From: a virus
Strand: one strand, 5' to 3'
IMG/VR virus record: IMGVR_UViG_3300042731_007991
Coordinates: 1 to 28,452 of that record
DNA: 28,452 nt
Within the stretch, counting starts at the first letter, position 1. Each line of letters opens with the position of its first letter. Shown here one piece after another: positions 6,126 to 25,204 of this stretch. The position numbers and the translations under genes are program-made. A model generated the notes under the pieces. That model worked only from the letters and a program-made list of their open reading frames with translations, was not told the DNA's origin and did not search any database.

Positions 6126-6175
6126 CCACATCCGTGTCGGACCTGCCCTCGGCATCGGGCCGCCCGGCATATTAT

Positions 6176-6230: not shown

Positions 6231-6244
6231 CAGACAAGGCCAAA

Positions 6245-7477
6245 ATGAACGCACAAACAAACCAACCAACTATCCAACCAACCAACCATCCAACTATCCA
6301 ACTATCCAACCAACCAATCATCCACCTATCCACCCAACTAACCGCCCTCATCACCACCCCCGACACCGCCCTCTGGACATCCTGGAACAACGCCTACCAC
6401 GGTTGGCTCCAGGCCAAGCGCAGGCTCAGCGACGCCGGCAACACCGTTCGCACCTACCAGACCGCCTATCGCCAATTCTACCAATGGGCCAACACCGCCC
6501 CCTGGGACATCACCCCCGATCACGCCGCCGCCTGGGCCGATTATCTCAGCGCCCACGGCCGGGCCAACGGCCGGGGGGGGCTCAAACCTAGCACCATCAA
6601 TCTCAAACTCGCCGCCCTGGCCAGCTTTTACGATCACATTCTCAAACATACCGACCTCTGGCCCGCCGACCGCCGCAACCCCTTCCACACCGTCGAGCGC
6701 ACCAAGATCACTCCCTATGGCCACGCCGCCTACCCCACTCACAGCCAGGCCCGCCAGCTCCTGCAAACCTGCAATCGCCGCTATCTCACCGGCCGGCGAG
6801 ACTACGCCCTCATTCTCGCCTACCTCACCACCGGCCACCGGGCCAGCGAGATCCTCAACCTCACCTGGGGGCAACTTCAGGCCGACCGGCCCCGCATCCG
6901 GGCCAAAGGCAATAAAACCATTCGCAGCGCCTTCGGCCTCCAGACCCGCCAGGCCATTCTTGATTATATCAAAGCCGATGGCCGTTTGTCTTGCATCCGA
7001 GAGGATGATTACATCTTCATTCCCATCGATCCCACCCGGGCCCAGCGCCTCCGCACCGAAAAGCCCCTGCCGGGAGCCTACGTCGTCTACCACCTGGCCG
7101 ACCCCACCCACACCCGCGACTTCGACACCTACGCCGAAGCCGCCCTCTACCACGACCTCCTCCTCGACTATGAGCAACCCACCCTGCTCAAACGCAACCG
7201 CCCCCTTACCAACGCCCAGGTCAACCGCAGTCTCAAAAAATACGCCGCCCGGGCTGGCATCGATCCCAAAAAAGCCCACCTCCACGGCCTCCGCCACGCC
7301 TTCGGCCGCCATATGGCCGACACCATGCGCACCGCCACTGGCGCCGTCGATTACGAACTTCTCCAAAAACAACTCGGCCATACCGGCATCGCTACCACTC
7401 AGATCTACGCCGAAACCATCCTCGACGGCGGCAACCCCTACCTCGCCAACATCGAAGCCGATTTAATTAGCAAATGA
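6245..7477 (+). CDS. second tyrosine recombinase
   Basis: 410 aa from the ATG at 6245. The frame is open back to a GTG at 6134, but that region holds a repeat copy. The N-terminus has a low-complexity stretch (TNQPTIQPTNHP and so on) encoded by a CAAC/CTATC tandem repeat. A SAM-like core-binding domain follows (about 45-160). The catalytic domain has TTGHRASEIL (Arg), AKGNKT (Lys), HLHGLRHAFGRH (HxxR), LGHTGIATTQIY (His and Tyr). All key residues are present. A long insertion of about 100 residues separates the Lys and HxxR motifs. It is inside the early operon, away from the attP-like site, so a resolvase or replication-linked role is as likely as integration. No IntI features are seen. Confidence 0.85.
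   Translation: MNAQTNQPTIQPTNHPTIQLSNQPIIHLSTQLTALITTPDTALWTSWNNAYHGWLQAKRRLSDAGNTVRTYQTAYRQFYQWANTAPWDITPDHAAAWADYLSAHGRANGRGGLKPSTINLKLAALASFYDHILKHTDLWPADRRNPFHTVERTKITPYGHAAYPTHSQARQLLQTCNRRYLTGRRDYALILAYLTTGHRASEILNLTWGQLQADRPRIRAKGNKTIRSAFGLQTRQAILDYIKADGRLSCIREDDYIFIPIDPTRAQRLRTEKPLPGAYVVYHLADPTHTRDFDTYAEAALYHDLLLDYEQPTLLKRNRPLTNAQVNRSLKKYAARAGIDPKKAHLHGLRHAFGRHMADTMRTATGAVDYELLQKQLGHTGIATTQIYAETILDGGNPYLANIEADLISK
6255..6342 (+). repeat. degenerate CAAC/CTATC tandem repeat in the recombinase N-terminus
   Basis: Repeated ACCAACCA and CTATCCAA units of 4 and 8 bp, translated as TNQPTIQP-like repeats. Similar CAAC-rich tracts lie near the starts of genes at 5901, 12335 and 18396. Confidence 0.6.
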
Positions 7478-8788: not shown

Positions 8789-8789
8789 A

Positions 8790-12335: not shown

Positions 12336-12559
12336 TGTCCAATCATCCAACCAACCAACCATCCAACCACCCTCTCTACCAACTCACCATCTACGCCGCC
12401 GCCCTCGATCTCGTCCAAAAAATAGACCAATGGCTCACCGCCGGCTACCACCTCCGCACCACCACCGGCCGCCTCATAACCACCCTCGACCAGGCCATCA
12501 ACGCCATCCAATACAACTATCTCGATCACACCTGCCTACCCTGGAGCCGCGATCAATGA
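12335..12559 (+). CDS. hypothetical protein, CAAC-repeat N-terminus
   Basis: 74 aa, starting at the last base of the previous stop (TAATG) and ending in an ATGA overlap with the replication gene. The N-terminus (NHPTNQPSNHP) comes from a CAAC-rich tract. The rest is a compact helical region with Tyr and Thr (AAALDLVQKIDQWLTAGYHL). Tight coupling on both sides suggests a role in replication. Function unknown. Confidence 0.6.
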   Translation: MSNHPTNQPSNHPLYQLTIYAAALDLVQKIDQWLTAGYHLRTTTGRLITTLDQAINAIQYNYLDHTCLPWSRDQ

Positions 12560-13944
12560 CCCAATTCACCATCTGGGAAAAAACCCTTACCCAACTCGAA
12601 TCCACCCTCCCCCGTGAGGCATTCACCACCTATCTGGCCGGCAGCCGCCAGGTCTCCCTCATCGATGGCACGCTCACCGTCGCCGTCTCCACCCCTACCA
12701 TCAAAGCGTGGCTAGAACATCGCCTCGCCCCCACCATCACCCGCGCCCTCACCCACGCCGCCGCCCCCCTCGATCCACCCCAGATCAAATACATCGTCGG
12801 TGAATCTCCTCCCCCCCAGCGGCGACCGAAGGAAGGATTAAGGGGGGGAGAGTCCTCACCCATCCGCCCCGACGGCCACCGCGATTCCTATACTGCCTAC
12901 GAGATCCTCACCACCGACTGGCCCGAGCCCATCTGGGCCATTCCCGGCCTGCTGCCCGCCGGCCTGGCCGGCCTTACCGCCCTGCCCAAAATTGGTAAAT
13001 CCTATCTGGCCCTCCAGCTCGCCCACGCCATCTCCACCGGTGGCCACTTCCTGGACCATCCCGTCCAGGCTGGCAAATTTCTCTATTTCGCCCTCGAAGA
13101 TCGGGTTCAGCGTCTCCGATCTCGGATGGATCAGCAGCAATGGGCTGCTGATCAGCAGCAAAAACTCAATAACTTCATCACCTATGACCAATTCCGCAGC
13201 GTCTACGGCAAACTCGACGACGGCGGCGCCGAGATCCTCCGTCAAAAAATCCTCTACCACAAATACACCCTCGTCGTCATCGACACCTTCTCTTGGGCCT
13301 TCCCCGGCGATCAGGACCGTGTCGACCAGATGTACGCCGCCCTGGGGCCCGTCAAACAAGTCGCTCTCAATAACAACTGCTGCGTCCTGGTTATCGACCA
13401 CCACAACAAGCGCGCCTCCTCTGGCCAGGAACTCATCCTCGATTGGCTCGGCTCCATCGGCAAAGCCGCCATCACCGACACCCTCTGGGGCCTCTATCGC
13501 GAACAGGGCAAAGCCGGCGCCCATCTCTTGATGACCGGCAAAGATATCGAAGAACAAACCCATCATATCATCTTCGACAAACAAACCGGCCTCTGGAGGC
13601 CCGATGCCTCCGCCGGCTTCCAGATCAACGACCACCACCAGGAAATCCTTGACATCCTCGTCGATCTCAATCGTGCCAGAGTCGGCGAAATCGCCAACGC
13701 CATCGAGCAAAACCGGGGCAACGCCCATAAGCGTTTACAAAAACTCGTCGCCGAAGGCTACATTACCCGCACCTTCGATCAAAACGGCGCCGTCTATTAC
13801 GAACCATCCCAGGACTACATTCTCAGTTTAGACACAATGTCGGTAAACACGGTAAACACGGTAAACACCGGGAAACAGGTAAACAAAGTAAACACCAACC
13901 CCTCCCCCCCTATGGGAGGGACTGAGGGAGGGCAGAACCCATAA
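12556..13944 (+). CDS. replication protein: DnaA N-terminal-like domain fused to RepA/RadA-type ATPase
   Basis: 462 aa from the ATG overlapping the previous stop; the frame is open 42 codons further upstream inside that gene. Residues 1-70 resemble domain I of DnaA, the part that contacts replicative helicase (IWEKTLTQLESTLPREAFTT, TLTVAVSTPTIKAWLEHRL). Residues about 84-101 are repeat-encoded linker. An AAA_25/RepA-like ATPase follows: Walker A in LPKIGKSYLALQLA (about 142-149), Walker B in TLVVIDTF (about 240) and a later VLVIDHHNK (about 278). A winged helix is likely at about 355-410. The tail VNTVNTVNT is encoded by iterons. It probably acts as initiator or helicase (loader) at the phage origin. 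Confidence 0.8.
   Translation: MTQFTIWEKTLTQLESTLPREAFTTYLAGSRQVSLIDGTLTVAVSTPTIKAWLEHRLAPTITRALTHAAAPLDPPQIKYIVGESPPPQRRPKEGLRGGESSPIRPDGHRDSYTAYEILTTDWPEPIWAIPGLLPAGLAGLTALPKIGKSYLALQLAHAISTGGHFLDHPVQAGKFLYFALEDRVQRLRSRMDQQQWAADQQQKLNNFITYDQFRSVYGKLDDGGAEILRQKILYHKYTLVVIDTFSWAFPGDQDRVDQMYAALGPVKQVALNNNCCVLVIDHHNKRASSGQELILDWLGSIGKAAITDTLWGLYREQGKAGAHLLMTGKDIEEQTHHIIFDKQTGLWRPDASAGFQINDHHQEILDILVDLNRARVGEIANAIEQNRGNAHKRLQKLVAEGYITRTFDQNGAVYYEPSQDYILSLDTMSVNTVNTVNTGKQVNKVNTNPSPPMGGTEGGQNP
12806..12859 (+). repeat. C/G-rich repeat, in-frame in the replication gene
   Basis: C-arm CCTCCCCCCC, a CGGCGACCGAAGGAAGG variant middle and a G-rich tail. It encodes the linker between the DnaA-like domain and the ATPase. 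Confidence 0.75.
13843..13893. repeat. GTAAAC iterons inside the replication gene
   Basis: GTAAAC at 13843, 13852, 13861, 13879 and 13888, with a degenerate GGAAAC at 13871, keeping a 9-bp period. It is the complement of the GTTTAC cluster at 3288-3337. Initiator genes often contain their own binding sites, so this may be a second origin-type site or an autoregulatory site. Confidence 0.65.
13899..13941 (+). repeat. C/G-rich repeat at the end of the replication gene
   Basis: CCCCTCCCCCCC, TAT, GGGAGGGACTGAGGGAGGG, ending just before the next ATG. It supplies the last about 14 codons of the replication gene. Confidence 0.75.
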
Positions 13945-14276
13945 TGACCACCTCCTCCACCCTCGCCCAAATAGCCGCCGAAATGCGCGCCTACGCCATT
14001 GATAACCCGCGTCTACACTCCACCATCAATATCAACCCCTACCGCCGGCGTCTATCCAAAGGCCTCAAAATCGTCCTATATCTGGGGCGCAATCACATCT
14101 GGCATCTCAGTCTCTATCGCACCGCCACCCCTCCCAGCCCCACCGAAATCGCCATTTGCCGCAACGTCTTCAACATCCCCAAAGATGCCGACCAAAAAAC
14201 CGACGACGTCCACGGCTGGCCCATCATCCGCATCACCTGGACCGAACCGGGTCAAATGAAACTTGTACCAAAATGA
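13944..14276 (+). CDS. hypothetical early protein, last phage gene before the cassette array
   Basis: 110 aa, overlapping the replication-gene stop by one base (TAATG). Strand-rich with alternating aromatic and basic residues (GLKIVLYLGRNHIWHLSLYR), no Cys pair and no signal. Codon use (third-position C) matches the phage operon, not the cassettes that begin 58 bp downstream. Function unknown. It could be a single-strand-binding or accessory replication protein by position only. Confidence 0.65.
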   Translation: MTTSSTLAQIAAEMRAYAIDNPRLHSTININPYRRRLSKGLKIVLYLGRNHIWHLSLYRTATPPSPTEIAICRNVFNIPKDADQKTDDVHGWPIIRITWTEPGQMKLVPK

Positions 14277-14277: not shown

Positions 14278-14310
14278 TCGTATAATCCCGCCTAGAGCGG
14301 GATTATACGA
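14278..14310. repeat. 14-bp perfect hairpin at the left edge of the cassette array
   Basis: Arms TCGTATAATCCCGC (14278-14291) and complement (14297-14310), loop CTAGA. It begins two bases after a phage stop codon and lies 24 bp from the first cassette junction. There is no T-run, so it may be a recombination or attI-like structure rather than a terminator. The bases 14311-14333 (ending TTG) would be the remaining left-flank sequence. Confidence 0.6.
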
Positions 14311-14362
14311 ACATTCGTTCGGTGAATAAATTGTTAGGCGGATGATAGAAAAGGAGAAAAAA

Positions 14363-14632
14363 ATGGAACGTTGTCCAAAATGTACTGGTGAAGATGACAA
14401 TTGCGACCGATGCGACGGCCTGGGGGTTATTGACGTGCCAACTACTATCTATTTACAGATTGACTACGATATCGACGAGATAACCTGGTGCGTTGATAAA
14501 ATCTATGATAATGATCTTGAGTACACATTAGTTCCGCCTAACAAGCCGTTCGTGCCGACTGACAACGTTGATTTTAGCCGCAGGGTCGTCTTCCCGCCAC
14601 GGCCCTGGCAGCGGCACAACGGCGGGCGTTAG
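14363..14632 (+). CDS. cassette 1 protein, Cys-rich zinc-binding-like
   Basis: 89 aa from the ATG at 14363, with AAGGAG seven bases upstream; an ATG at 14342 is in frame but has no such site. It starts MERCPKCTG and has CDRC near residue 20, the CxxCxG spacing of DnaJ-type zinc knuckles. The last about 32 residues (from PPNKPF) are encoded by the attC site, and the stop TAG is part of its right-hand GTTAGGC box. Product unknown. Confidence 0.65.
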   Translation: MERCPKCTGEDDNCDRCDGLGVIDVPTTIYLQIDYDIDEITWCVDKIYDNDLEYTLVPPNKPFVPTDNVDFSRRVVFPPRPWQRHNGGR

Positions 14633-14634
14633 GC
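14536..14634 (+). repeat. attC site 1
   Basis: Left box GCCTAAC (14536-14542), right box GTTAGGC (14628-14634). Inner arms GCCGTT-C-GTGCCG and CGGCACAACGGC pair with one unpaired C, the extrahelical base typical of attC. Its last 41 bases up to GTTA are identical to attC 5. Confidence 0.9.
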
Positions 14635-14647
14635 GGATAAAAGAGTA

Positions 14648-14872
14648 ATGATGAAAAGAACACATATAAACCAATGGTTCAAGGGTGGTTGCGTGGAAAA
14701 TGTCCCAGCCTGGGTGGACGAAAACGACAACGTTTTTTTGGACAGGCATATTGTTGGGCAATTGATGGATTTATGGTTAGATTGGCCAAAAAACAGATGG
14801 GCGGTACGTTTTGATGTGATGTATCCGCCTAACAAACATTTGCAGGCCGACCCCGACAGCCGCCGCAAATGA
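14648..14872 (+). CDS. cassette 2 protein, hypothetical
   Basis: 74 aa (a second ATG is one codon in). Trp-rich and acidic (WFKGGCVENVPAWVDENDNVFLDRHIVGQLMDLWLDWPKN). The final about 15 residues, from PPNKHLQADPD, are attC-encoded. No family recognised; such small orphan proteins are typical of cassettes. Confidence 0.65.
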   Translation: MMKRTHINQWFKGGCVENVPAWVDENDNVFLDRHIVGQLMDLWLDWPKNRWAVRFDVMYPPNKHLQADPDSRRK

Positions 14873-14944
14873 GACGGCTCTGGGCGTGGATGAATCTGTG
14901 ATAGCCGCACACAGTAGGCGGGCGGCTGAAATGTGGCGTTAGAA
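14827..14944 (+). repeat. attC site 2
   Basis: Left box GCCTAAC (14827-14833), right box GTTAGAA (14938-14944). Inner arms ACATTT/AAATGT and CAG-G-CCG/CGGCTG with one extra base. 23 bases before the right box are shared with attC 4. Confidence 0.9.
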
Positions 14945-14960
14945 GGACTGATTGAGGCTT

Positions 14961-15806
14961 ATGAAACACATCGGAAGTTTTTCCACCGGCTTATCATCGG
15001 CAATCACAATTGAACGGATGTTAAACCGTTACGGTAAAAAAAACTGTGAAATTGTCGCAATGGACACGCTTGCAGAACATCCAGACAATTGGCGGTTTGC
15101 CGCTGATTGTCAAGCCAGATGGGAAAAAGAGATTGTAATTTTGTGCGATGGCCGCGACCCGTACCAAGTGGCTGAGGACAAACACATTATCCCCAACCAA
15201 AAAATAGCTCCCTGTACGTTTGAGTTGAAAATTGAGATATTTAGAAAATATCTACAACAATTTACTAAACCTGTAACCGTCCACATTGGATATGACATCT
15301 TTGAGGCCCACCGATGCGAAGCCACCGAAAATAGCTATAAATCTGAGGGGTATGGTATTGATTTTCCGTTACTCTGGAAGCCAATTGAACATAGACCATA
15401 CTCTCAGGTTGTGCGTGATGATTGGGGCATTGAGCCACCGCACACGTACAGCCTGGGCTTCTCCCACGCTAATTGCCTCAAAAAAGGCTGCGTGAAGATG
15501 GGGCAAGGTGATTGGATTAGATTCTATATCAATTTTCCAGATGCCTATTTGGAGCGTGAAACCTGGGAACAACGAATGAGAGAACACCCAACACGGCAGA
15601 ATTACGCAATATTGCGCGACCAGTCAAACGGAACGGTGAAGCCGTTGACTCTCAAGGAACTCAGAGAACGGTACGAGGGAGACAAAAAACTTCAACCATC
15701 GTTTTTTGATGAATTATCACCGGCTTGTATTTATTGCGGCGTGGGTGATTTTTTAACAACGTCACCTTCACGTCCTTCTAACAAGCAAATTGTACCGAAT
15801 TGCTAA
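14961..15806 (+). CDS. cassette 3: phage-type PAPS reductase-like ATP pyrophosphatase
   Basis: 281 aa from the ATG at 14961 (TTGAGG just upstream; an in-frame TTG three codons earlier is possible). The nucleotide loop is altered: FSTGLSSA stands where FSGGxxSA is usual. Further matches to phage PAPS-reductase-like proteins are AMDTLAEHPD, DGRDPYQVAED, PCTFELKIEIFRKYL, GYDIFEAHR, LGFSHANCLKKGCVKMGQGDW, AILRD and PLTLKELRERYE, with a C-terminal CIYC. Such proteins are ATP-pyrophosphatase-fold enzymes, some linked to DNA sulfur modification or tRNA/nucleotide chemistry; the substrate is not known here. The loop change may reduce activity. The last about 10 codons lie in the attC. Confidence 0.8.
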   Translation: MKHIGSFSTGLSSAITIERMLNRYGKKNCEIVAMDTLAEHPDNWRFAADCQARWEKEIVILCDGRDPYQVAEDKHIIPNQKIAPCTFELKIEIFRKYLQQFTKPVTVHIGYDIFEAHRCEATENSYKSEGYGIDFPLLWKPIEHRPYSQVVRDDWGIEPPHTYSLGFSHANCLKKGCVKMGQGDWIRFYINFPDAYLERETWEQRMREHPTRQNYAILRDQSNGTVKPLTLKELRERYEGDKKLQPSFFDELSPACIYCGVGDFLTTSPSRPSNKQIVPNC

Positions 15807-15902
15807 TCTTGCCGCGCTAACAACCCGGCCTTTAATCGTGGTAGTGTCGGCCACGTACACACATTATATACCCGCAATCGGCACATTTGCGGGCCGTTAG
15901 CT
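15776..15902 (+). repeat. attC site 3
   Basis: Left box TTCTAAC (15776-15782), complementary to the cassette's own start; right box GTTAGCT (15896-15902). Inner arms CAAATTGT and ACA-TTTG pair with one extra base. Confidence 0.88.
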
Positions 15903-15957
15903 GGACTGAGCGAACCTTAAATTTTGCAAAACTCCTTGACGAATTTGTGTAAAACAC

Positions 15958-15986
15958 TTGACATTGTATAGCAGATGTGCTATACT
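15958..15986 (+). promoter_or_regulatory. strong promoter with palindromic operator in cassette 4
   Basis: TTGACA (15958-15963), a 17-bp spacer and TATACT (15981-15986). A perfect palindrome, GTATAGCA (15966-15973) and complement (15978-15985) around GATG, fills the spacer and overlaps the -10, so a bound protein would block transcription. Confidence 0.85.
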
Positions 15987-16032
15987 ACAGGCAGTTAAGT
16001 AAGTCGTACACAAAAACCAAAGGAGACAAAAA

Positions 16033-16287
16033 TTGAACGCTCAACAACAGATGGTAGAATACGCAAAAAGCAGAATGAACGAGATGGGCCAAAGCACATT
16101 AACTCCCGAACAGTGGTGCGGCAAGATGATCTCTGAGGGGATCGTAATTAGTAGAGACCTTGAAGATATGGTTGTAGCCAACGCCAAACGCGAAGGCAAA
16201 ACCATCATCATCACCGAGACTACCAAAGTCGAAAGGCTGAACGGCACCGAAGAAACCACCGTCGAAGTGATGCGGATCAGCCTCTAA
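16033..16287 (+). CDS. cassette 4 gene 1, hypothetical
   Basis: 84 aa from a TTG start with AGGAG seven bases upstream; an ATG seven codons in (16051) is the alternative. N-terminal helix (QQMVEYAKSRMNEMG), then a strand-rich, Thr/Glu-heavy C-terminal half (TIIITETTKVERLNGTEETTVEVMRI). First gene of a two-gene operon with its own repressible promoter; it overlaps the RHH gene by one base. Layout resembles toxin-antitoxin cassettes, but no toxin family is recognised. Confidence 0.7.
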   Translation: MNAQQQMVEYAKSRMNEMGQSTLTPEQWCGKMISEGIVISRDLEDMVVANAKREGKTIIITETTKVERLNGTEETTVEVMRISL

Positions 16288-16580
16288 TGACTACTCAATT
16301 TAATGTCAGGCTCCCGGATGTGGTAATTGATGACATCAACTATCTATCAACCAAATACGGCTCCCAGTCAAAAGCAATTATTGCAGCCGTAACAAATTTA
16401 GCAACGGAATTTAAAACCAAAGAAAGGATGATCGGAATGAAGCTCTATTATTGCCCTGCTGGTGGACACCTATGGTATTACGGTGACGATGGCACTCCGT
16501 TATTTTACAAAAATCTCGGAGATGCCACCGATGAAGAGGTGGAAACAGCCGAGGAAAAATACTGCGGGTGTAATGATTAG
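16287..16580 (+). CDS. cassette 4 gene 2, RHH-domain protein
   Basis: 97 aa, starting at the last base of the previous stop (TAATG). Residues 4-45 follow the ribbon-helix-helix plan (FNVRLPDVVIDDINYLSTKYGSQSKAIIAAVTNLA). It probably binds the palindrome at 15966-15985 and represses the cassette. After residue 50 a separate small part begins (MKLYYCPAGGHLWYYG... CGCND), with its own ATG at 16437 and AGAAAGG upstream, so a second shorter protein may also be made. Confidence 0.72.
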   Translation: MTTQFNVRLPDVVIDDINYLSTKYGSQSKAIIAAVTNLATEFKTKERMIGMKLYYCPAGGHLWYYGDDGTPLFYKNLGDATDEEVETAEEKYCGCND

Positions 16581-16583
16581 TCC

Positions 16584-16668
16584 AGCTAACAAACATTTCC
16601 AGCCGACCCGTAGACCTGGCCATCGAGATCGACCAACCAGGCCGGGCGGCTGAAATGTGGCGTTATAT
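16584..16668 (+). repeat. attC site 4
   Basis: Left box AGCTAAC (16584-16590), right box GTTATAT (16662-16668). Inner arms ACATTT/AAATGT and CAGCCG/CGGCTG. Right part shared with attC 2. Confidence 0.9.
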
Positions 16669-16698
16669 GGCTCATTTGAGCCAGGAAGGAATTTAAAA

Positions 16699-16920
16699 AT
16701 GTATACTAGTAAAGCAGATATGGCATTTAATTTAGGCAGTAATCAAGGGGAACAATGTTGGTGTGGAGATGAGCAGGCCAGTGGGTATGTCCACCAAAAG
16801 GTGTGGCATCCTCATTCCTGTGGGTCCGAGCGGTGCAAAGAACTAGAAGCCCAGTATCAAGCCCTTCCCGCTGGCGAAGATTGGGAATGGGAAAAGATTT
16901 TTGGAGCGCCTGCCACATAA
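16699..16920 (+). CDS. cassette 5 protein, Cys/His-rich hypothetical
   Basis: 73 aa from the ATG at 16699, with AGGAAGGAA upstream; the frame is open further back into attC 4. CWCGDEQ near residue 20 and HPHSCGSERC near 40 give CxC and Cys/His pairs that could hold a zinc ion. It stops inside the attC left box (ACATAAC). Function unknown. Confidence 0.65.
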   Translation: MYTSKADMAFNLGSNQGEQCWCGDEQASGYVHQKVWHPHSCGSERCKELEAQYQALPAGEDWEWEKIFGAPAT

Positions 16921-17011
16921 CAAATCAATGCCGACTGACCAACCTTAATCTTAGCCGCAGGGCCGGTTTCCCGCCACGGCCCTGGCAGCGGCACAACGGC
17001 GGGCGTTATAT
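16915..17011 (+). repeat. attC site 5
   Basis: Left box ACATAAC (16915-16921), right box GTTATAT (17005-17011). The left box matches the cassette start less well than in other cassettes, and the left inner arm (AATCAATGCCG) pairs poorly with the right one. Right half identical to attC 1 over 41 bases. Confidence 0.85.
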
Positions 17012-17028
17012 GGCTAAAGGATGCCAAT

Positions 17029-17292
17029 GTGAATAAACTATATCAATCTCTTTACCAAGAATTTGGGGAGAACGAAACCCATAAAACTCGTCGTGAAATA
17101 ACAGCAAAGACTGGAAAGCAACCAAGTTACATAGAGCTGTTGGCGGAGTTGAGCCTGAAACAAGGGTATAAACCACCGCCATATAACAAATCGCTCAACG
17201 CCGAATTGCCTACCGCCGCAAATGGCGACGAATCGGAGCCATCGGCGCAATCAATTATCAAACTGTCAACGCTGGCCCGGCAATCGGGTTAG
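17029..17292 (+). CDS. cassette 6 protein, hypothetical
   Basis: 87 aa from a GTG start with AAAGGA upstream. The first 50 residues are helical and charged (NKLYQSLYQEFGENETHKTRREITAKTG). The remaining about 37 residues, from YNKSLN to the stop, are encoded by attC 6. The native domain may therefore be only about 50 aa. Function unknown. Confidence 0.6.
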   Translation: MNKLYQSLYQEFGENETHKTRREITAKTGKQPSYIELLAELSLKQGYKPPPYNKSLNAELPTAANGDESEPSAQSIIKLSTLARQSG

Positions 17293-17306
17293 CTCAACCG
17301 TTAGGT
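17181..17306 (+). repeat. attC site 6
   Basis: Left box ATATAAC (17181-17187), right box GTTAGGT (17300-17306). Inner arms CCG-A-ATTGCC and GGCAATCGG with one extra A. Confidence 0.88.
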
Positions 17307-17311
17307 GCTTT

Positions 17312-17581
17312 ATGACTAAACAAGAGAAATTCGTGATCGAGTATCTAAAAATGAATTATGCCACAGACATTTACGACCAAAATTTCCACGAGGAATTTTA
17401 CGAGCGTTTTGGTGGCAAGCGCGCCATTTATCATTTTGGTTCGTGCCCCGTTCATAAGGCACAGCGACTGCTGGCTCGGATGTATAAATCTGGTATGCTA
17501 AATCGTAGCAGAGTAACATTATCAGGTCACGAGCCGGGGTTTAGAAATTGGGTGTATGTTTACACCCTGCCCCGCACCTAA
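17312..17581 (+). CDS. cassette 7 protein, possible winged-helix
   Basis: 89 aa; ATG six bases after the right box of attC 6, with no clear ribosome binding site. Helices KFVIEYLKMNY and AQRLLARMYKSGML followed by a strand-like RSRVTL...WVYVYTL give a winged-helix look, with one Cys-His (CPVH). Ends inside the attC 7 left box. Function not recognised. Confidence 0.62.
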   Translation: MTKQEKFVIEYLKMNYATDIYDQNFHEEFYERFGGKRAIYHFGSCPVHKAQRLLARMYKSGMLNRSRVTLSGHEPGFRNWVYVYTLPRT

Positions 17582-17700
17582 CAAATCATTCAAGTGGAAT
17601 TACTAAGCCGTTTTTTTACCAACTATCCCGCGCCAGTATAGTGGGTTTACATTAGACGGTACGGTGCTGGTCCGTAATCCGCTTAATTCAAACGTTAGGC
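17576..17700 (+). repeat. attC site 7
   Basis: Left box ACCTAAC (17576-17582), right box GTTAGGC (17694-17700). Inner arms AAGTGG-A-ATTAC and GTAATCCGCTT pair with one extra A. Confidence 0.88.
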
Positions 17701-17726
17701 GGATACGCCGGAAAGGAAAATTAACA

Positions 17727-17936
17727 ATGGATGCACGCACCGGCCTACCGGTCGATTTAGATGAACTTGAACGACGGTTGGCAGAACAACAATGGCAGGC
17801 TTACCAAGCCGGCCTGATTGAACAGAAGCCGCGCTATGTACCCCTGGACGGTGACAAGACGCCGGTCAATACACAGCCGAAGCGCAAACGCCGGCGCGGC
17901 AAGGCCCGGCGTAGCTACAAAGATCATTGTCGATAG
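17727..17936 (+). CDS. cassette 8 gene 1, small basic-tailed protein
   Basis: 69 aa from the ATG at 17727 (GAAAGGAAAA upstream). Acidic helical N-terminus (LDELERRLAEQQWQAYQAGL), then a Lys/Arg-rich C-terminus (PKRKRRRGKARRSYK) suited to nucleic-acid binding. Nine bases separate it from the next gene. Function unknown. Confidence 0.65.
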   Translation: MDARTGLPVDLDELERRLAEQQWQAYQAGLIEQKPRYVPLDGDKTPVNTQPKRKRRRGKARRSYKDHCR

Positions 17937-17945
17937 GAGAGAACC

Positions 17946-18233
17946 ATGGTCAAACCACGTGGTCAAGTCAAGCGCAGCACGACTCCGCAAAAAGCGCATT
18001 ATGCCCAACTAGGTGAACCGGCAATCACTATCGCCGCCTGGTGCCCAGATGATGAAGCAAAAGAACCGCCAGAGCAGGTTCACCTGGTTCACGTCATTCC
18101 AGGTTTGGAAGAATATCCACTGATTCTGCGGTTTAAGTCGCCGGATACGCTAGGCTTCTTGATCGAAGAGTTGACAAAATATCGGCGGGAAGTCTGGCCA
18201 GATTGTGAGCCGGTGAAGGGAGAATCCGCCTAA
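17946..18233 (+). CDS. cassette 8 gene 2, hypothetical
   Basis: 95 aa with TAGGAGAGAACC before the ATG. Basic N-terminus, then a strand-rich middle (PAITIAAWC, VHLVHVIPG) and a helix near the end (TLGFLIEELTKYRREVW). The stop lies within the attC left box. It is probably co-transcribed with the preceding small basic gene. Function unknown. Confidence 0.68.
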   Translation: MVKPRGQVKRSTTPQKAHYAQLGEPAITIAAWCPDDEAKEPPEQVHLVHVIPGLEEYPLILRFKSPDTLGFLIEELTKYRREVWPDCEPVKGESA

Positions 18234-18300
18234 CAAACATTCTAACAAGCCAGCCAATCCAGCCGACTGATTGACGCGGCGGTAGCAGATTGGCGGCATT
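18228..18300 (+). repeat. attC site 8, degenerate (end of array)
   Basis: Left box GCCTAAC (18228-18234), complementary to the cassette start. A second left-box-like TTCTAAC lies at 18240-18246, followed by inner arm GCC-A-GCCAATC that pairs with GATTGGCGGC (one extra A). The right end reads GCATTAAA, with A18298 where the invariant G of GTT should be. Confidence 0.7.
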
Positions 18301-18304
18301 AAAA

Positions 18305-18359
18305 AAGCCTCCCGGGATGTCGGGAGGCTTACCACAGGCGAACGCACGATCTCCTGTGG
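18305..18359. terminator. two hairpins beyond the array; the first a minus-strand terminator
   Basis: A perfect 10-bp stem AAGCCTCCCG (18305-18314) / 18321-18330 with six A on its left (18301-18306), which is a T-run on the minus strand. A second stem CCACAGG (18332-18338) / 18353-18359 follows. The first could stop leftward late transcripts from entering the cassettes. The gap 18301-18395 holds no gene. Confidence 0.6.
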
Positions 18360-18365
18360 CCACCC

Positions 18366-18386
18366 AATCATAACACAAAAAAAGGA
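18366..18386 (+). promoter_or_regulatory. conserved leader / ribosome binding element, copy 2
   Basis: ATCATAACACAAAAAAAGGAGC ahead of the start at 18396, nearly identical to 7986-8006 ahead of 8017. Confidence 0.5.
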
Positions 18387-18395
18387 GCGCACCAA

Positions 18396-18800
18396 ATGAA
18401 ATCAACCAACCAACTCCTCCCCCTCCTCTTCCAACCACCAGCCGCCCGCACCCCAGACGGAATCCCGATACTCATCGTCACCTCCTCCATGGAGGCCACC
18501 GTGACCCAACAAACCAAACCCATCAAATGGCTCGACGAACGCCTCTACTGCAAACACGCCCGCCAAGAAGACATCGACGGCGCCGCTACCTGCCTCGAGC
18601 GCCAACAAAACGCCCAGGGTGCCATCTACTGCGGCCTCACCGGTCTGGCCCGCTGCCTCCCCTGCGCCTTCGATGAGCCCGAAAACAGCGATCTTTGGCA
18701 GCGCATCCGCGCTAGCGTCGCCAAATACCAGGAAGAAGGTTGGACCCCTTCTCCCCGGAGCGAAGCGAAGCGGGCTGAGGAGGGGAGAGACCCCCAATGA
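18396..18800 (+). CDS. hypothetical Cys-containing early protein
   Basis: 134 aa; AAAGGAGCGCACCAA precedes the ATG. Residues 45-95 hold about five Cys (LYCKHARQ, ATCLERQ, YCGLTG, RCLPCAF) that may bind zinc. The N-terminus is hydrophobic but too short and interrupted for a clear membrane segment. The last about 17 residues (SPRSEAKRAEEGRDPQ) come from the repeat at 18745-18795. Codon use matches the phage operon, so this gene was probably contiguous with the one at 13944 before the array arrived. Function unknown. Confidence 0.65.
   Translation: MKSTNQLLPLLFQPPAARTPDGIPILIVTSSMEATVTQQTKPIKWLDERLYCKHARQEDIDGAATCLERQQNAQGAIYCGLTGLARCLPCAFDEPENSDLWQRIRASVAKYQEEGWTPSPRSEAKRAEEGRDPQ
18745..18795 (+). 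repeat. C/G-rich repeat, long form, at gene end
   Basis: CCCCTTCTCCCC, GGAGCGAAGCGAAGCGGG middle, GAGGAGGGGAGAG tail and CCCCC, ending at the next ATG. Confidence 0.75.
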
Positions 18801-19529: not shown

Positions 19530-19918
19530 TACTCCGCAAGCCGATGCGCCACGAATCGCCACGCCTCTATTTGTCGCAAATTTTCACTCATCAATCGTCG
19601 AATGTAGCTCCGCAGCGTCGTCAAATCGGCGCTATCCACCAGTGGTATATTTTCCTCAAGCCACGCAATCTCTGTCGTGGCATCTCCTTGTAATTCCTGC
19701 AAATCGACTTTCGCCGCAAACTCCTCGATATGCCGGCCAGTATCAATTAATGCCTGAGCCTCAATCGAATTTGCATCTAACCAATCCTCCGGCGTTTGAT
19801 ATTCTCTAATAGTCGTTTCGACCACAGCCAGGCGAATAAGACCAGAGGCATCTGGGCCATAAATTTGAAATGATAAATAATCGTCCTCTTGATTGACCGC
19901 TCTAATTTTAATTGTCAT
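19529..19918 (-). CDS. hypothetical protein, last gene of the late operon
   Basis: 129 aa, ATGA overlap with the upstream gene. Strand-rich N-terminus (MTIKIRAVNQEDDYLSFQIYG) then helices with many acidic residues. Following the putative receptor-binding gene it may be a tail-fibre chaperone or a minor tip protein. No family recognised. The only Cys-free small gene of this operon beside the terminator. Confidence 0.65.
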   Translation of the reverse strand: MTIKIRAVNQEDDYLSFQIYGPDASGLIRLAVVETTIREYQTPEDWLDANSIEAQALIDTGRHIEEFAAKVDLQELQGDATTEIAWLEENIPLVDSADLTTLRSYIRRLMSENLRQIEAWRFVAHRLAE

Positions 19919-21006
19919 CCTGTAGCCTCATAATCTATAGCTCCGAACCAAATATAATCGTCTGCGCCGGCGCCACGAGATTGATGTAATCGTGCCCACA
20001 TCTGCCCATATGTTGGCGCAGATGTTGGGGTTTGTTCAAAAATTAATCGATGCGATAGTGCAATTGGGTTATCCCCAACATATACTCTTACAAGTTTTGT
20101 AGACTTAAAAACCGCAACCCTCAAGAAAATGGGTCGCAGCGGAGCAATGTCCAGATTTACCCAACTACCAGAATGAGACCCCCCTGCTCCGTCTGCCTCT
20201 TCTCCTCTAATCCTCCAAAGTGAACTGGCGCTATCCCACTGTAAATGCGCGCGACCATAGATAGTTGCATCTATGGCTCCCGCATTATTTGCGCAGATGC
20301 TGAAATAATAATCAACATCTGCCGAGTAATTATAATAACGGAATAATACTGGCCCTAATATAAAGCTGTGGACATTTTCGGATCCACCTTCTAAATCAAG
20401 TAACGATTGTCTATAATATTCCCATGAGGTATTACTATTGCTTCCAACTATCCTCCAAAACGAATAGATGTCATTTGTATTTGTCGCCTTCGGAGCATCA
20501 TTTTCGGTCCACCCCGATGGAAAGCTACTATCATTATCACGGAAATGTGATGTAATTCCGGAATTATTAATCGTATCAATAAGTGGATAATCATACCATT
20601 TTGCTACAACTGTGCGCCCTTGTTGATCTTCTAAATTACCGTCGGCGTCTATAGCAAACGCCACCGCGCCACCGTCGCTCTCCCATAGCTGATAGATCTT
20701 CCCTCCGGCTGGCGTCGCTCCTATCCCTCCCTGCCCAAACACCACAAATAGCCGGTAACTGGCAAAATAGAGCACATCCACGTAATTTCCGACCTGCACG
20801 TTAACAAATTGACCTCGCCACCGGCACCGCTGCTGATTATGCTGTCCTACCACCGCCTCGATCCAACCATTGTCCGTCGCATACAAATCCTTATCCGCCA
20901 CAGACATCACCTCACAGCCTGGAATCAGCTCCGGCGGCGTAAATAATCCTACCAGATCCGTCGCCAGCCGCTCGATCTCCCGCATCGTCTCTACACTCAA
21001 CGCCAT
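19915..21006 (-). CDS. tail-tip / receptor-binding protein candidate
   Basis: 363 aa. Residues 1-130 look like a structural attachment part (RLATDLVGLFTPPELIPG, repeated strand patterns to YQLWESDGG). Residues 135-360 form a strand-rich, Trp/Tyr/Asn/Ser-rich domain (SSFPSGWTE, YYNYSADVDYYF, GSHSGSWVNLDIAPLRPIFLRVAVF) with the look of a concanavalin-type or carbohydrate-binding beta sandwich. The DNA of this half is visibly less C-rich than its neighbours, which suits a host-range module exchanged between phages. Its position distal to hub and tape measure supports receptor binding. Not a family match. Confidence 0.65.
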   Translation of the reverse strand: MALSVETMREIERLATDLVGLFTPPELIPGCEVMSVADKDLYATDNGWIEAVVGQHNQQRCRWRGQFVNVQVGNYVDVLYFASYRLFVVFGQGGIGATPAGGKIYQLWESDGGAVAFAIDADGNLEDQQGRTVVAKWYDYPLIDTINNSGITSHFRDNDSSFPSGWTENDAPKATNTNDIYSFWRIVGSNSNTSWEYYRQSLLDLEGGSENVHSFILGPVLFRYYNYSADVDYYFSICANNAGAIDATIYGRAHLQWDSASSLWRIRGEEADGAGGSHSGSWVNLDIAPLRPIFLRVAVFKSTKLVRVYVGDNPIALSHRLIFEQTPTSAPTYGQMWARLHQSRGAGADDYIWFGAIDYEATG

Positions 21007-21023
21007 CTCAAAACTCCTATCGG

Positions 21024-21061
21024 CTCCCCTCTCCCCTTGGGAAAGGGGCTGGGGGTGAGGG
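21024..21061 (+). repeat. C/G-rich repeat between late genes
   Basis: CTCCCCTCTCCCC, TT, GGGAAAGGGG, CTGGGGGTGAGGG tail. Confidence 0.7.
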
Positions 21062-21068
21062 TAAGGGC

Positions 21069-22148
21069 TTATCCATTCTCCGCCTCCAGCCGCAGCATCG
21101 TCCGCGCCGTAAAATTGCTCAGCAATTCCACCACCACCTTATGGATCCAAAACTTCTTACTGTTCCAATTGATCCCATCCGCCAGGCTCATATAAGTAAT
21201 CTGGACCCGGTCCAGCAGCTCGACCAGCAGTCCCACCCCACTCCCGATCCTGACCTCCACCGTATAATCCCGATTCTCGAACTTGAAAATTCGCTCGGAG
21301 ATCGTGTTCATCAACGCATTCGTCGTCGCCACGTAGCCCGACCGCTCCACAATCGGCCCCGGATTCGCATCCGTCGGATATCGGCCCCGCAATTGCAGCC
21401 CCCGCGGCGTCACCCCATGCAATATTACCTGCCCGATCTCCTCCCCGTTCCGCCGCTCGAACCGTAACGGTTCCGCCAGCCAATCATTCCCCAGCGTAAA
21501 TACCGGCGTCGGCAACGCCCCCCCAAACATCGGGTGGGGCCCAAAATGCAATACGCCATTCTTGCTCACGTACAATAAATACCGGTCGATCTCCGCAATC
21601 TCCCGCAGCCGCTCCCAAAAATTCCCCTCCTTCACTTCATATTCATCCACCGCGCTGCTGCTCGAAAAATCAAAATCCAGGCTCACAAACCCTTCCGGAG
21701 ACGTTACCGTCGAAAACGCCCCTCCCCACAATGAATTATCATACAGCGCCGCCTGGTCCGCCCGCATCAAATTGCAATGCCCCCCAAAAATCTCATAAAC
21801 GATCTTGGCATACGTCATATCAATAATCTGGTGACGATTGGCCGGGCTGGCCTCATCCCTAAAAAATATCCCTTGCACCCGCCCCTTTTTCATAAATTCC
21901 TGGGCCGTATACCCGTTCCACGGCGCCACCGACGTCTGAAACGTCTTCTCCCATGGCTCCGGCAGCAAATGCCCCGCAAACCCCGGCCTGGGCAATGCCT
22001 CCCATCCCCCGGCGTACAAATCAAACCAGCTCTCTAACTGCTGGTAGAACTCAAGCCTTTCCGCCTCCCCAATCACCGACCCGGAAGTGCGCCACCCCCC
22101 ATCCTCCACACTTCCCTCAATTCGTGCAATAATATCAACACCCGCCAT
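21069..22148 (-). CDS. tail hub / baseplate-type protein
   Basis: 359 aa, no signal peptide. Strand-rich throughout, with an N-terminal part (VDIIARIEGSVEDGGWRTSG), a central part (KIVYEIFGGHCNLMRADQAALYDNS...FWERLREIAEIDRYLLYVSKNGVLHFGPHPMF) and a C-terminal part (VILHGVTPRGLQLRGRY...NRDYTVEVRIGSGVGLLVELLDRVQITY). The phrase of a short helix ahead of a strand-turn-strand reading a local parameter (LYVSKNGVLHFGP) is common in phage hub proteins of the gp27-like fold. It sits between tape-measure-side genes and the tip gene, as hub proteins do. Fold assignment is inference. Confidence 0.6.
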   Translation of the reverse strand: MAGVDIIARIEGSVEDGGWRTSGSVIGEAERLEFYQQLESWFDLYAGGWEALPRPGFAGHLLPEPWEKTFQTSVAPWNGYTAQEFMKKGRVQGIFFRDEASPANRHQIIDMTYAKIVYEIFGGHCNLMRADQAALYDNSLWGGAFSTVTSPEGFVSLDFDFSSSSAVDEYEVKEGNFWERLREIAEIDRYLLYVSKNGVLHFGPHPMFGGALPTPVFTLGNDWLAEPLRFERRNGEEIGQVILHGVTPRGLQLRGRYPTDANPGPIVERSGYVATTNALMNTISERIFKFENRDYTVEVRIGSGVGLLVELLDRVQITYMSLADGINWNSKKFWIHKVVVELLSNFTARTMLRLEAENG

Positions 22149-22179
22149 TCATCATCCCCTCGGCATACACTGAAACAGC

Positions 22180-22226
22180 TCCCCCTCCCTGAGGGAGGGG
22201 GTTAGGGGGAGGGCGAAATCCCCGCC
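22180..22226 (+). repeat. C/G-rich repeat between late genes
   Basis: CCCCCTCCC, TGA, GGGAGGGGG, TTAGGGGGAGGG tail, then AATCCCC: a near-consensus copy. Confidence 0.8.
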
Positions 22227-22240
22227 ATAAATCATCCCCA

Positions 22241-23851
22241 TCATCGACTTACCTCCACTCCATTCACCCGTCCCATCGTTGCCTCGCTCACATCCTCACT
22301 CGTCACTCCCAGATTCGGGCTAAAAAACAACTCCCCGGCCCCCGAGCCCTGCCCCGCCAGAATCAAATCCAGTTCGGCTACCGGATGCCTGGCCGCCTCC
22401 CGCAGCGTCACCGGCCCATCATCCACCTTCGACCACGTGGTCCCCCCGGTCCGGCTCCGGTAAATGTCATCGTCACTGAACACCGCCACCAGGTCCGTCG
22501 GCTGCAATGGATCTATCAATAATGCCACGCAAAACTTATCGCTCGCCCAGCCGCCGTCATCCAGATCCAAAAATACATACCCCCCATCGTCACTTACTTG
22601 TACTTGCGCGTCGCTCCCATCCCGGCCCCGCAAATAAACGATCTCATCCGTCCCCGGCCTGGCCACCGGCATCAGCCCCCGACTTCGGCTGTCGATCTCC
22701 GCAAACGACGCCCCCCCAAACGTCACCCGCCTGGCCAGGCTCAACGTCGCCAGCTCGTACACCTCCAAAAACAACGTCCCATCCTCCGCCCCGGTCACGT
22801 ACAAATTCACCTGGTCCGTCGCCAGCCCCAGGTGTCGCCGGCCGATATCCCCGCCGTCGAATGGCGTCACCGAACCGCCGCTATAAAAATAAACCGTACC
22901 CGCCGCCGAGGCCATCAAATATAACGTGGTGCCCAGTCGAAAATAAGAACGGATGTATCCCCCCACCGCGCCCAGGCTGCCGTCCGCCACAAAATCACTC
23001 CCATTCCAGATATAGGCGTCATTTTGATTCAACAGATGCATCATGATCGCATCGCTGCCCACGTTGTAAACCAGAATCGGCCGGGCGCTATGAGTGGTGG
23101 CCAGCGCCGTCGGCGACGCCCCCCAATCATTTTTATCCGTCCTGTAGATCGTATAAGGGCTGCCCCCATCATGATAGAATAGATAATCATCCGTGTGGCC
23201 AATCAAAACACCGCCCGCCGCCAGCCCGGGACTCTGCTCCGCCCAATCCCCGGCCGATCTCACCGCCAGGTCGTCGCCCGAATCCTGAAAAGCCACCATT
23301 TTGCTATATCTACCCAGCCAGCCCTGCAAATGATCGATGCTCGGCAAAATAAGCTCGGGAGACGTATTGTAAGCCAGCTCCCACGTATCCACGCCCCACG
23401 TCGTGCCGTCCGCCGAGCTATTGATCGACGATGCCCCTCCTCCGGCTTTGGCCGTCGCCACCAGGGTTGTGCCATCCGTCGATAACGACGGATGATAACC
23501 GGTATCCGCCAGCGCCTGCGTCCCCACGTTATTCACCAGGATCCGCACCCGGGTCCAGCTCGTTCCCCCGTCCCATCTGGACACCACCACGTAAGATCCG
23601 GCCCCCGCCCCCTCGTTATAATGGATCGCATATAACGTCCCCTTGAACCAGCAGATATCAAAAATCCCGTGAGGCGAGCTGCCGCCCGTAAAATAACCCC
23701 CGGAAATATCCGTCAATGTCGCCCCATCCCAGCTAAAAACTTTCGTGCTGGTCCTGAAATAGAACGTGTCGAAATCCGGGTTCACCGTGCCAGCTGTGCC
23801 GGCATACTCCGTCCCCGTCGTCGTTTCCGTATCAACTAACGTCCAGGCCAT
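22241..23851 (-). CDS. tail-associated beta-propeller-like protein (BNR-type repeats)
   Basis: 536 aa made of repeated short strands with Asp-box-like turns: SADGTTWGVDTW, SDDGGYVFLDLDDGGW and SRTGGTTWSKVDDG match the S-x-D-x-G-x-(T/S)-W pattern of sialidase/BNR blades. Several WDG, YFYSGG and LYLMAS strands fill the spaces. It is one base from the PKD/propeller gene upstream and was probably formed from the same building blocks. In a tail it would serve as a side fibre or glycan-binding surface. Enzymatic activity is not suggested by any catalytic residue seen. Confidence 0.65.
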   Translation of the reverse strand: MAWTLVDTETTTGTEYAGTAGTVNPDFDTFYFRTSTKVFSWDGATLTDISGGYFTGGSSPHGIFDICWFKGTLYAIHYNEGAGAGSYVVVSRWDGGTSWTRVRILVNNVGTQALADTGYHPSLSTDGTTLVATAKAGGGASSINSSADGTTWGVDTWELAYNTSPELILPSIDHLQGWLGRYSKMVAFQDSGDDLAVRSAGDWAEQSPGLAAGGVLIGHTDDYLFYHDGGSPYTIYRTDKNDWGASPTALATTHSARPILVYNVGSDAIMMHLLNQNDAYIWNGSDFVADGSLGAVGGYIRSYFRLGTTLYLMASAAGTVYFYSGGSVTPFDGGDIGRRHLGLATDQVNLYVTGAEDGTLFLEVYELATLSLARRVTFGGASFAEIDSRSRGLMPVARPGTDEIVYLRGRDGSDAQVQVSDDGGYVFLDLDDGGWASDKFCVALLIDPLQPTDLVAVFSDDDIYRSRTGGTTWSKVDDGPVTLREAARHPVAELDLILAGQGSGAGELFFSPNLGVTSEDVSEATMGRVNGVEVSR

Positions 23852-23852
23852 C

Positions 23853-24713
23853 CTACACCTCGCTCCAGTTCACCGCCCCGGCCGTGCTCGCTCTCATCCC
23901 CCCCGCCTCTTCCGTCACAAATACCCAGCTCCGCTCCTCGCCAAACCCATTCACCCAGTTCGCAATAGCGAACAGCCGGCCGTCCGGCGCAAACTCGAGC
24001 TGCATAAATCTCAAATCATCCACCGCCGGTCCCGGGCTGTCGCCCCCATAATTACTCACGTTCGCCGGACTTTTCTCGACCCAACTATCCCCCCCGCCAT
24101 TCGATACGAAGATTCCCCCATCGGTCGCAATCCATACCGTTTTATCCCCATCCGCCAACGATTGTGTCGCCGGATCTATTTTCAGATCATTCACCGCCAG
24201 GTCATAATCGACCAGGCCGGTATTTTTCGCCGTCCACGACTGTCCCCCGTCGGGTGTATACCATACCCCATCCTCAGCCGCAATAAAATAGCTATTCCCC
24301 GGCTCCCGCACCATCTGGATCGCTCTCGCCGGCGAGCTTTTCCTCCCCGTCCCATCCTCCACCACCAGGGTCACCTCAAACTCTCCGGCCGCCGCCCAGC
24401 TTACCGTCCCATTATCACTCACGCTCGATGCCGGCGTTCCCCCCTCAAATGTAAATGCATAGCCGGTCACCGATCCATCCGGATCATAACTATCCCTCCC
24501 ATCAAATGCCACGCTATCCCCCACCAGGCACGGATTCGGGTCCAGTTCCAGCATCGCCACCGGCTCCTTCCCCTCGCTGATCCCCATCTCATTCGGATCC
24601 GTACAGCAAAAAAACCGGGGCGTAAACACCGGCCCCAGCTCGCTCTCAAATCGCCACGCCGTCGCAGCCTTTAATTTTTCTACAAACTCACTACTAAACG
24701 GAGTCGTCGCCAT
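23853..24713 (-). CDS. tail protein with PKD domain and BNR/sortilin-like repeats
   Basis: 286 aa, GGAAGGTGA upstream. Residues about 53-132 form a PKD (Ig-like) domain: PNPCLVGDSVAFDGRDSYDPDGSVTGY...WAAAGEFEVTLVVEDGTGRKS. Residues 140-275 carry BNR/Asp-box strands (YTPDGGQSWTAKNTG, VSNGGGDSWVEKSP) of the sortilin-type propeller. PKD and BNR domains usually bind carbohydrate or other surfaces, so a host-recognition accessory is likely. Directly precedes the larger propeller gene in the same operon. Confidence 0.72.
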   Translation of the reverse strand: MATTPFSSEFVEKLKAATAWRFESELGPVFTPRFFCCTDPNEMGISEGKEPVAMLELDPNPCLVGDSVAFDGRDSYDPDGSVTGYAFTFEGGTPASSVSDNGTVSWAAAGEFEVTLVVEDGTGRKSSPARAIQMVREPGNSYFIAAEDGVWYTPDGGQSWTAKNTGLVDYDLAVNDLKIDPATQSLADGDKTVWIATDGGIFVSNGGGDSWVEKSPANVSNYGGDSPGPAVDDLRFMQLEFAPDGRLFAIANWVNGFGEERSWVFVTEEAGGMRASTAGAVNWSEV

Positions 24714-24718
24714 AAATC

Positions 24719-24794
24719 ACCTTCCCCCCCAGCGAGGAGGATTGCGCAGCATCCCGGAGCAAAGCGAAGGGGCCGAGGGAGGGAGAAGCCCCCT
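24719..24794 (+). repeat. C/G-rich repeat, long form, between late genes
   Basis: CCTTCCCCCCC, AGCGAGGAGG, then the GGAGCAAAGCGAAGG long-form segment and GAGGGAGGG tail. Overlaps the 3' end of the next minus-strand gene by two bases. Confidence 0.75.
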
Positions 24795-25146
24795 AACTCC
24801 CCTCATCAATGATTACCTGCACCACCAACTCCACCCCCGTCACACTCCGGTCCAGCGGGCTCTGGTACCGGCTGATCTTCTTACTCACCACCCCCGCGCT
24901 ATACACCACATTCGCCCCCGTCGGCACATCCCCCGGCGCATACGCCTGCAGGCTCGTCAACACCCGATTCTCAAAATTGTCCCAATTGAAAGGCTGCCCC
25001 GCCAGCGCCGGCGCCTGCATCCTGAAGATCTTATAAGCCCCTACCGCCTCCGTTCCATTCAGAACGCCATCAATAACCGCATCCTTCCACACGTCATTCG
25101 CCGGCTGTGGCAGCAATGTTACTCCATTAATCGCAATCGTCGCCAT
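24793..25146 (-). CDS. minor tail protein, hypothetical
   Basis: 117 aa from the ATG at 25146 (GGGGGGGAGGTGTTT upstream); an in-frame ATG two codons earlier lies in the spacer. Strand-rich (MATIAINGVTLLPQP, SVTGVELVVQVIIDEG) with a central helical region. Located just after the tape-measure gene, where distal tail or tail-completion proteins usually sit. Family not recognised. Confidence 0.6.
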   Translation of the reverse strand: MATIAINGVTLLPQPANDVWKDAVIDGVLNGTEAVGAYKIFRMQAPALAGQPFNWDNFENRVLTSLQAYAPGDVPTGANVVYSAGVVSKKISRYQSPLDRSVTGVELVVQVIIDEGS

Positions 25147-25150
25147 AAAC

Positions 25151-25195
25151 ACCTCCCCCCCAGCGGGGGGGATCGAGGGGAGGAGATATCCCCGC
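25151..25195 (+). repeat. C/G-rich repeat between late genes
   Basis: CCTCCCCCCCAGCGGGGGGGATCGAGGGGAGG, then ATATCCCC; plus orientation. Confidence 0.75.
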
Positions 25196-25204
25196 CCGCC
25201 TCCC

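Follow-up and report, generated by a model that had tools for sequence, protein, structure and literature searches.

An integron cassette array without integrase in a phage early operon, at a locus that may act as a cassette slot

How does a phage without an integron integrase come to carry a row of integron gene cassettes? This question is raised by IMG/VR virus record IMGVR_UViG_3300042731_007991, a metagenomic viral contig of 28,452 bases, possibly a fragment, which was analysed over its full length and is referred to here as the window. At 14334-18298, within the early operon of the phage, lies a head-to-tail integron cassette array without integrase (CALIN) that belongs to the phage genome. 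We put at roughly two in three the probability that this array is filled in trans by an integron integrase (IntI) of the host, the locus acting as a cassette slot.

CALINs in phages are known: Qi et al. 2023 found 17 of them (PMC9892861), including those of Tetrasphaera phage TJE1, Polaribacter phage P12002L, Pseudoalteromonas phage PH101 and Shewanella prophage M16-3, the last with an attI of its own at the CALIN start, and 5 of 6 phage attC sites tested in that study recombine with IntI1 (PMC9892861). An earlier interpretation of the window made from its letters alone (the sequence-only reading) had presented a phage-borne array as a new vehicle for cassettes; this is not supported, since phage CALINs were already published (PMC9892861).

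Results

Eight cassettes, eight junctions and eight attC-like sites

The array consists of eight cassettes of 295-958 bases with one or two open reading frames (ORFs) apiece, eight G/TT junctions (the slash marks the junction) and eight attC-like sites (Table 1). We searched for TAAC...GTTA with complementary arms (stem scan), using 300 dinucleotide shuffles of the region as null. Six sites (attC 1-4, 6 and 7) scored 19-26, the range for class 1 integron attC sites with the identical scanner being 19-33; the shuffles yielded a mean of 0.07 and a maximum of 2 sites with a score of at least 18. A covariance model was then applied that had been trained on 17 attC sites, none from the window, drawn from class 1 plasmid integrons, a Shewanella phage and Chloroflexota intI loci. 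This model of external attC sites scored seven of the eight sites, six of them top-ranked in the window and site 5 weakly; the seven hits, all on the + strand, outrank everything except the reverse of the site at 16584. Rfam gave zero matches in the window at gathering threshold.

Arm alignments place extrahelical bases on the left (L'') arm in all eight sites, attC 2 alone having an additional single gap on the opposite arm, deep within the stem. Unpaired bases on the left arm are the attC signature and thus give all sites a common orientation; by model hits and arm alignments alike they lie on the + strand, in the same direction as the early operon. Once a cassette is circular, its right box is completed by the bases at the start of that same cassette, so that the left box must complement those bases. 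Complementary runs of 10, 12, 11, 12, 5, 10, 9 and 11 bases were found for cassettes 1 to 8, respectively, a fit as good in just 0.02% of permutations (p = 2e-4). Cassette 5 is the partial match, with one mismatch.

Most of the sequence-only reading is upheld by these results. It had described eight head-to-tail cassettes each ending in an attC, and the positions of the eight junctions and eight sites are confirmed; the complementary boxes with extrahelical bases, the latter in all eight sites, and the left-box complementarity to each cassette's own start, partial in cassette 5, came out as it proposed, and in the covariance-model check that it had called for all sites but attC 8 receive a score. 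Its placing of the array between phage genes of the early operon is likewise supported by homologs of both flanks in other viral contigs. Of its span, 14334-18300, the start is kept and the end is corrected to about 18298.

The array lies within a phage genome

Three genes precede the array on the left, namely the DUF3102 gene, the AAA replication gene and one for a 110-amino-acid protein; on the right, two early genes are followed by a convergent tail module. Tail, replication and regulatory genes of a tailed phage surround the array, and the tape-measure protein is about 30% identical to those of characterised phages. Megablast against GenBank phages gave zero matches and a single-protein search with the AAA gene zero viral relatives; the DUF3102 gene, used as query, found five related viral contigs (L110-L114).

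The right flank is homologous to L110 14744-14834 (alignment p<=0.002), the flank of the same gene, with no array preceding it there. This homology sets the end of the array at about 18298 and gives the expected empty site as AATAAATTG/TTAAAAAAGCC, i.e. 14333 joined to 18299. L110 was considered as the empty site itself and rejected: its homology fixes the right boundary, but the genes on its left are different.

At the left junction we scored an attI motif, built as a position weight matrix of 20 Chloroflexota attI candidates. The junction scores 8.3, within the top 0.4% of 1032 GTTR sites (p=0.002 by shuffles), and on these shuffles we propose an attI-like site for the window only.

Could the arrangement be an artefact, either of assembly (a chimera) or of classification, with host chromosome taken for virus? 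The record is a 28-kb metagenomic viral contig, possibly a fragment, and the G+C content of the array, 0.47 overall, departs from the 0.56-0.63 of its flanks. Against this, homologs of either flank occur in other viral contigs, the array is surrounded by genes for phage tail and replication, and a second contig, described next, has an equivalent arrangement. We regard a chimera or a mis-called chromosome as highly improbable.

A related phage holds different cassettes at the orthologous place

The second contig, L111 (IMGVR_UViG_3300049893_002132), has in common with the window the DUF3102-linked domain (69%), the tail genes (49-68%) and the 110-amino-acid gene (L111 3824-4099; 37% over 102 amino acids with E 1e-11 by tblastn, 42% by pairwise alignment). 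Its array starts 52 bases after the stop of the latter gene, compared with 57 in the window, and a hairpin stands at the corresponding place (4150-4180), of a sequence that differs from that of the window hairpin. Four attC sites, at 4549, 4974, 5312 and 5962, are scored by the covariance model at E 1.3e-5 to 2.3e-3, and in each case 10-12 of the 12 left-box bases fit the start of the site's own cassette. The cargo comprises two HNH endonucleases, a DNA methyltransferase and small proteins, and by tblastx and tblastn not one cassette is common to L111 and the window. As judged from these two sequences, the orthologous locus keeps an array while all of its cassettes differ between two related phages.

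Two independent IntI-mediated insertions at one attI-like or G/TT secondary site, in related phages without an ancestral array, would also place two arrays here. That the two phages have zero cassettes in common, that the left-flank DNA of the window gives no alignment with that of L111, and that L115, L117 and L118, which share the tail module, have no array above threshold (L115 has one sub-threshold attC hit, E 0.16) are all in keeping with such insertions. A double hit in one short intergenic interval is however improbable unless the site is preferred, and a preferred site is a slot. We infer turnover of one ancestral array and consider two separate insertions rather unlikely. L122-L125, which have close homologs of the DUF3102-linked domain, carry no array.

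attC families are common to several viral contigs

Arrays were also found outside this lineage. G002 (IMGVR_UViG_3300035130_000101), a 70-kb contig that is a phage by gene content and largely unrelated to the window phage, has eight attC sites (covariance-model E <= 1.2e-4 in L006) plus decayed ones, and several of its attCs align with those of the window at 84-91% identity over 67-116 bases. In L112 two attC sites were found, one of them 84% identical over 121 bases to a G002 attC. Several phages with different cassettes thus have an attC pool in common. One G002 cassette weakly matches a Lar-like anti-restriction family (E 1.4e-4). Directly beside the G002 array (L099 13488-14144) stands a short tyrosine-recombinase-like gene, of which only the N-terminal SAM-like domain is recognised.

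Such sharing bears on whether the array is a relic, i.e. a piece of host integron captured once by illegitimate or homologous recombination, then passive and decaying, inherited by common descent, with ordinary phage recombination removing or exchanging cassettes. Qi et al. propose illegitimate capture for phage CALINs (PMC9892861), the window contig has no IntI (see below), no attC was found after the last L111 cassette, and two window sites are degenerate: attC 5 has lost its outer arm, its inner arms being intact, and in attC 8, unscored by the covariance model, the right box is the non-canonical ATTAAAA and the left box is present as a nested pair. The eight sites of the sequence-only reading are thus better described as six well-formed ones and these two. 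Yet in those six the attC arms are complete and the extrahelical bases on the left arm are retained, the place is kept between the window and L111 with a wholly different cassette content, and the attC families are common to several phage contigs carrying different cassettes. A relic is, in our view, unlikely.

Separately, three distant viral contigs (L142 9494-15615, L140 9532-11053 and L137 16921-17440) hold another attC-like family, TAACGGTTTGTRTATG...ATACACGTTGTTA, whose left boxes match neighbouring cassette starts at 10-11/12 bases for some neighbours and to which the covariance model gives no score; these are perhaps Bacteroidota-type cassettes in phages. Two DNA patterns were dropped as chance: matches of GGCTGAAATGTGGCGTTA in L005 and L007 fall within ORFs, and the covariance model finds no attC at the matches of CGGCACAACGGCGGGNGTTA in L103 and L104. 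L007, though dropped, led to Chloroflexota genomes.

Probable host and proposed source of the integrase

IntI was identified with TIGR02249 at a cut-off of 265 bits, the IntI-specific stretch being model positions 169-210. No IntI was found by this test on the window contig, which is possibly incomplete, nor in the related viral records searched; the two tyrosine recombinases of the window fall far below the cut-off (Table 1). The window therefore does not hold a complete integron, i.e. an intI gene with attI: it has no intI, and its left junction is attI-like.

DNA similarity of the phage points to Chloroflexota. Of 400 Chloroflexota genomes sampled, 43 have an IntI above the cut-off; the family to which the DNA matches of the phage belong has it in 18 of 41 genomes, including all four matching ones (Fisher p 5e-6 against the rest of the sample, Chloroflexota being the only phylum searched). 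In Chloroflexota genome G018, an attC that neighbours intI has arms matching those of one G002 attC at 22/22 and 22/24 bases. Together, these results indicate that the host is probably a member of the Chloroflexota.

Cargo and neighbouring features

The cassette 3 ORF matches phrog_424, the phage PAPS-reductase family (E 4.7e-33), and SspD (E 3.7e-11). In the related phage L117, the early operon ends in an ordinary gene without attC that has 69% identity to the second ORF of cassette 8; the L117 gene follows the homolog of window gene 18797, whereas the cassette 8 ORF precedes gene 18797. In cassette 4, a near-perfect sigma-70 promoter-like sequence, with an overlapping palindrome (TATAGCA-GATG-TGCTATA) that covers its spacer and -10, stands upstream of the second ORF, which looks ribbon-helix-helix-like by eye; cassette 4 may possibly be self-regulated. 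The only family match in this cassette is phrog_949 (E 0.011).

Elsewhere in the window, three small genes at 387-1624, perhaps a lysis module, are common to G002 at 40-64% identity, G002 otherwise sharing little. Another phage gene contains an inverted repeat rich in CCCC/GGGG (18979-19018) that is 82-92% identical to dispersed repeats in several Chloroflexota genomes.

Table 1. Features of the window (E, covariance-model E value unless a family is named)
Feature	Position	Strand	Remarks
Tyrosine recombinase, not IntI	1941..2885	-	TIGR02249 39.5 bits vs 265; positions 169-210 unmatched
Tyrosine recombinase, not IntI	6134..7477	+	TIGR02249 36 bits vs 265
DUF3102 phage gene	10827..12335	+	Pfam; query that found relatives L110-L114
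Phage replication gene, AAA helicase/primase-like	12430..13944	+	Pfam AAA_25; PHROGs
Phage gene left of array	13944..14276	+	110 amino acids; no family; adjoins array
Perfect 14-bp hairpin	14278..14310		Between 110-amino-acid gene and array; terminator-like on minus strand
Left junction, TCGGTGAATAAATTG/TTAGGC	14319..14339	+	attI-like
Cassette 1	14334..14628	+	ORF 14342-14632, small zinc-ribbon-like protein by eye
attC 1	14536..14634	+	E 1.6e-5; stem score 25.5
Cassette 2	14629..14938	+	ORF 14648-14872, no family
attC 2	14827..14944	+	E 1.3e-5; BLAST 84% identity over 116 nt to attC of phage contig G002
Cassette 3	14939..15896	+	ORF 14961-15806, PAPS-reductase/SspD-like ATP pyrophosphatase
attC 3	15776..15902	+	E 0.14; stem score 25
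Cassette 4	15897..16662	+	ORFs 16033-16287 and 16287-16580
Promoter-like TTGACA-17-TATACT	15958..15986	+	In cassette 4; 11/12 consensus bases, with TG
attC 4	16584..16668	+	E 2e-7; fold z -5.6
Cassette 5	16663..17005	+	ORF 16699-16920, no family
attC 5	16915..17011	+	E 0.66; right part resembles attC 1 (91% identity over 80 nt)
Cassette 6	17006..17300	+	ORF 17029-17292, no family
attC 6	17181..17306	+	E 0.015; stem score 21
Cassette 7	17301..17694	+	ORF 17312-17581, phrog_24457 (E 3.7e-9), phage family of unknown function
attC 7	17576..17700	+	E 2.2e-5
Cassette 8	17695..18298	+	ORFs 17727-17936 and 17946-18233
attC 8	18228..18304	+	Nested left boxes at 18228 and 18240; inner arms GCC-A-GCCAATC pair
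Phage right flank	18300..18392	+	Terminator-like hairpin and leader; starts TAAAA at 18300
Phage gene right of array	18396..18800	+	Homolog L110 14837-15097, 49%
Phage tail module	19915..26857	-	Pfam PhageMin_Tail and tape measure; convergent with early operon; common to L111, L115, L117, L118

Discussion

We propose the following scheme for the locus. Circular cassettes would be joined in tandem at a G/TT site that has a small early gene on one side and a terminator on the other, with the bottom strand of each attC folding into a hairpin of the kind bound by integron integrases. For a phage with no known IntI, insertion and excision would rely on an IntI acting in trans during infection or lysogeny and provided by a host that carries an integron and probably belongs to the Chloroflexota, so that sites and promoter would come from the phage and the enzyme from the host. 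The cassettes, co-directional with the early operon, would be read from it, and cassette 4 may in addition use its own promoter-like sequence. The locus would then be the cassette slot of a phage group, in which a relative holds wholly different cassettes at the corresponding place. The sequences themselves show the anatomy of the attC sites, where the cassettes begin and end, the phage flanks, a contig without IntI, the second array at the orthologous place and the attC families in common. Recombination by a host IntI, the identity of the host, expression and the direction of transfer are what we infer here.

Besides the unaligned left flank, the two degenerate sites and the array-less relatives described above, several observations weigh against this scheme. 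No recombination was observed. The attI motif is significant in the window only, being weak in L111 (p=0.06) and without a match in L006. A search of the 400 Chloroflexota genomes, and of the surroundings of intI in the best host family, gave no near-identical attC or cassette, and by tail gene profile no prophage of the window type was found in these 400 genomes. Finally, no clean empty site was found among the relatives. The statement of the sequence-only reading that a phage appears to have captured the cassettes stands as far as the array sits in a phage genome; capture itself is presumed, with only the right boundary fixed, by homology to L110.

A more specific version would have a lineage, probably infecting Chloroflexota, with a fixed early-operon platform of attI-like site and array, refilled by host IntI in trans, swapping cassettes with the host gene pool and making phage genes, such as that of cassette 8, into cassettes. 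We offer it tentatively, at somewhat less than even odds.

How does the locus compare with known systems? Like the window, the phage CALINs of Qi et al. have attC cassettes, no or a separate integrase, and phage genes on either side; that of TJE1 lies after a terminator and has 3 attC sites (PMC9892861), whereas the window has eight cassettes. The window differs from that set in having a related phage with other cassettes at the orthologous place, attC families common to several uncultivated phages, and a probable Chloroflexota host. Chloroflexota chromosomal integrons resemble it in attC type, G/TTRRRY junctions and possibly an attI motif similar to its left junction, but the window array is phage-borne and without an intI gene. 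Another virus record, Virus Rctr41k (KX853513.1, L096), has an array of five attC sites, and three of the neighbouring pairs tested obey the cassette rule; unlike the window, it encodes an IntI-like enzyme, with 47.8% identity to a Chloroflexota IntI. In that record (4680-9434) the integrase, annotated 'xerD', precedes the five sites; this uncultivated virus seems to have a complete integron, and is probably outside the set of Qi et al. because the record is 'partial'.

What goes beyond Qi et al. is the orthologous L111 array with different cassettes, the arrays in G002 and L112, and the attC families common to these or to the window. In the open-access literature text we found no report of an array kept at one phage locus with all cassettes changed; until now, cassette arrays in phages have been described individually. 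If the locus indeed keeps its array while changing all of its cassettes, phages would be using the integron enzyme of their hosts for gene swapping, and cassettes would travel by infection between integron-bearing bacteria.

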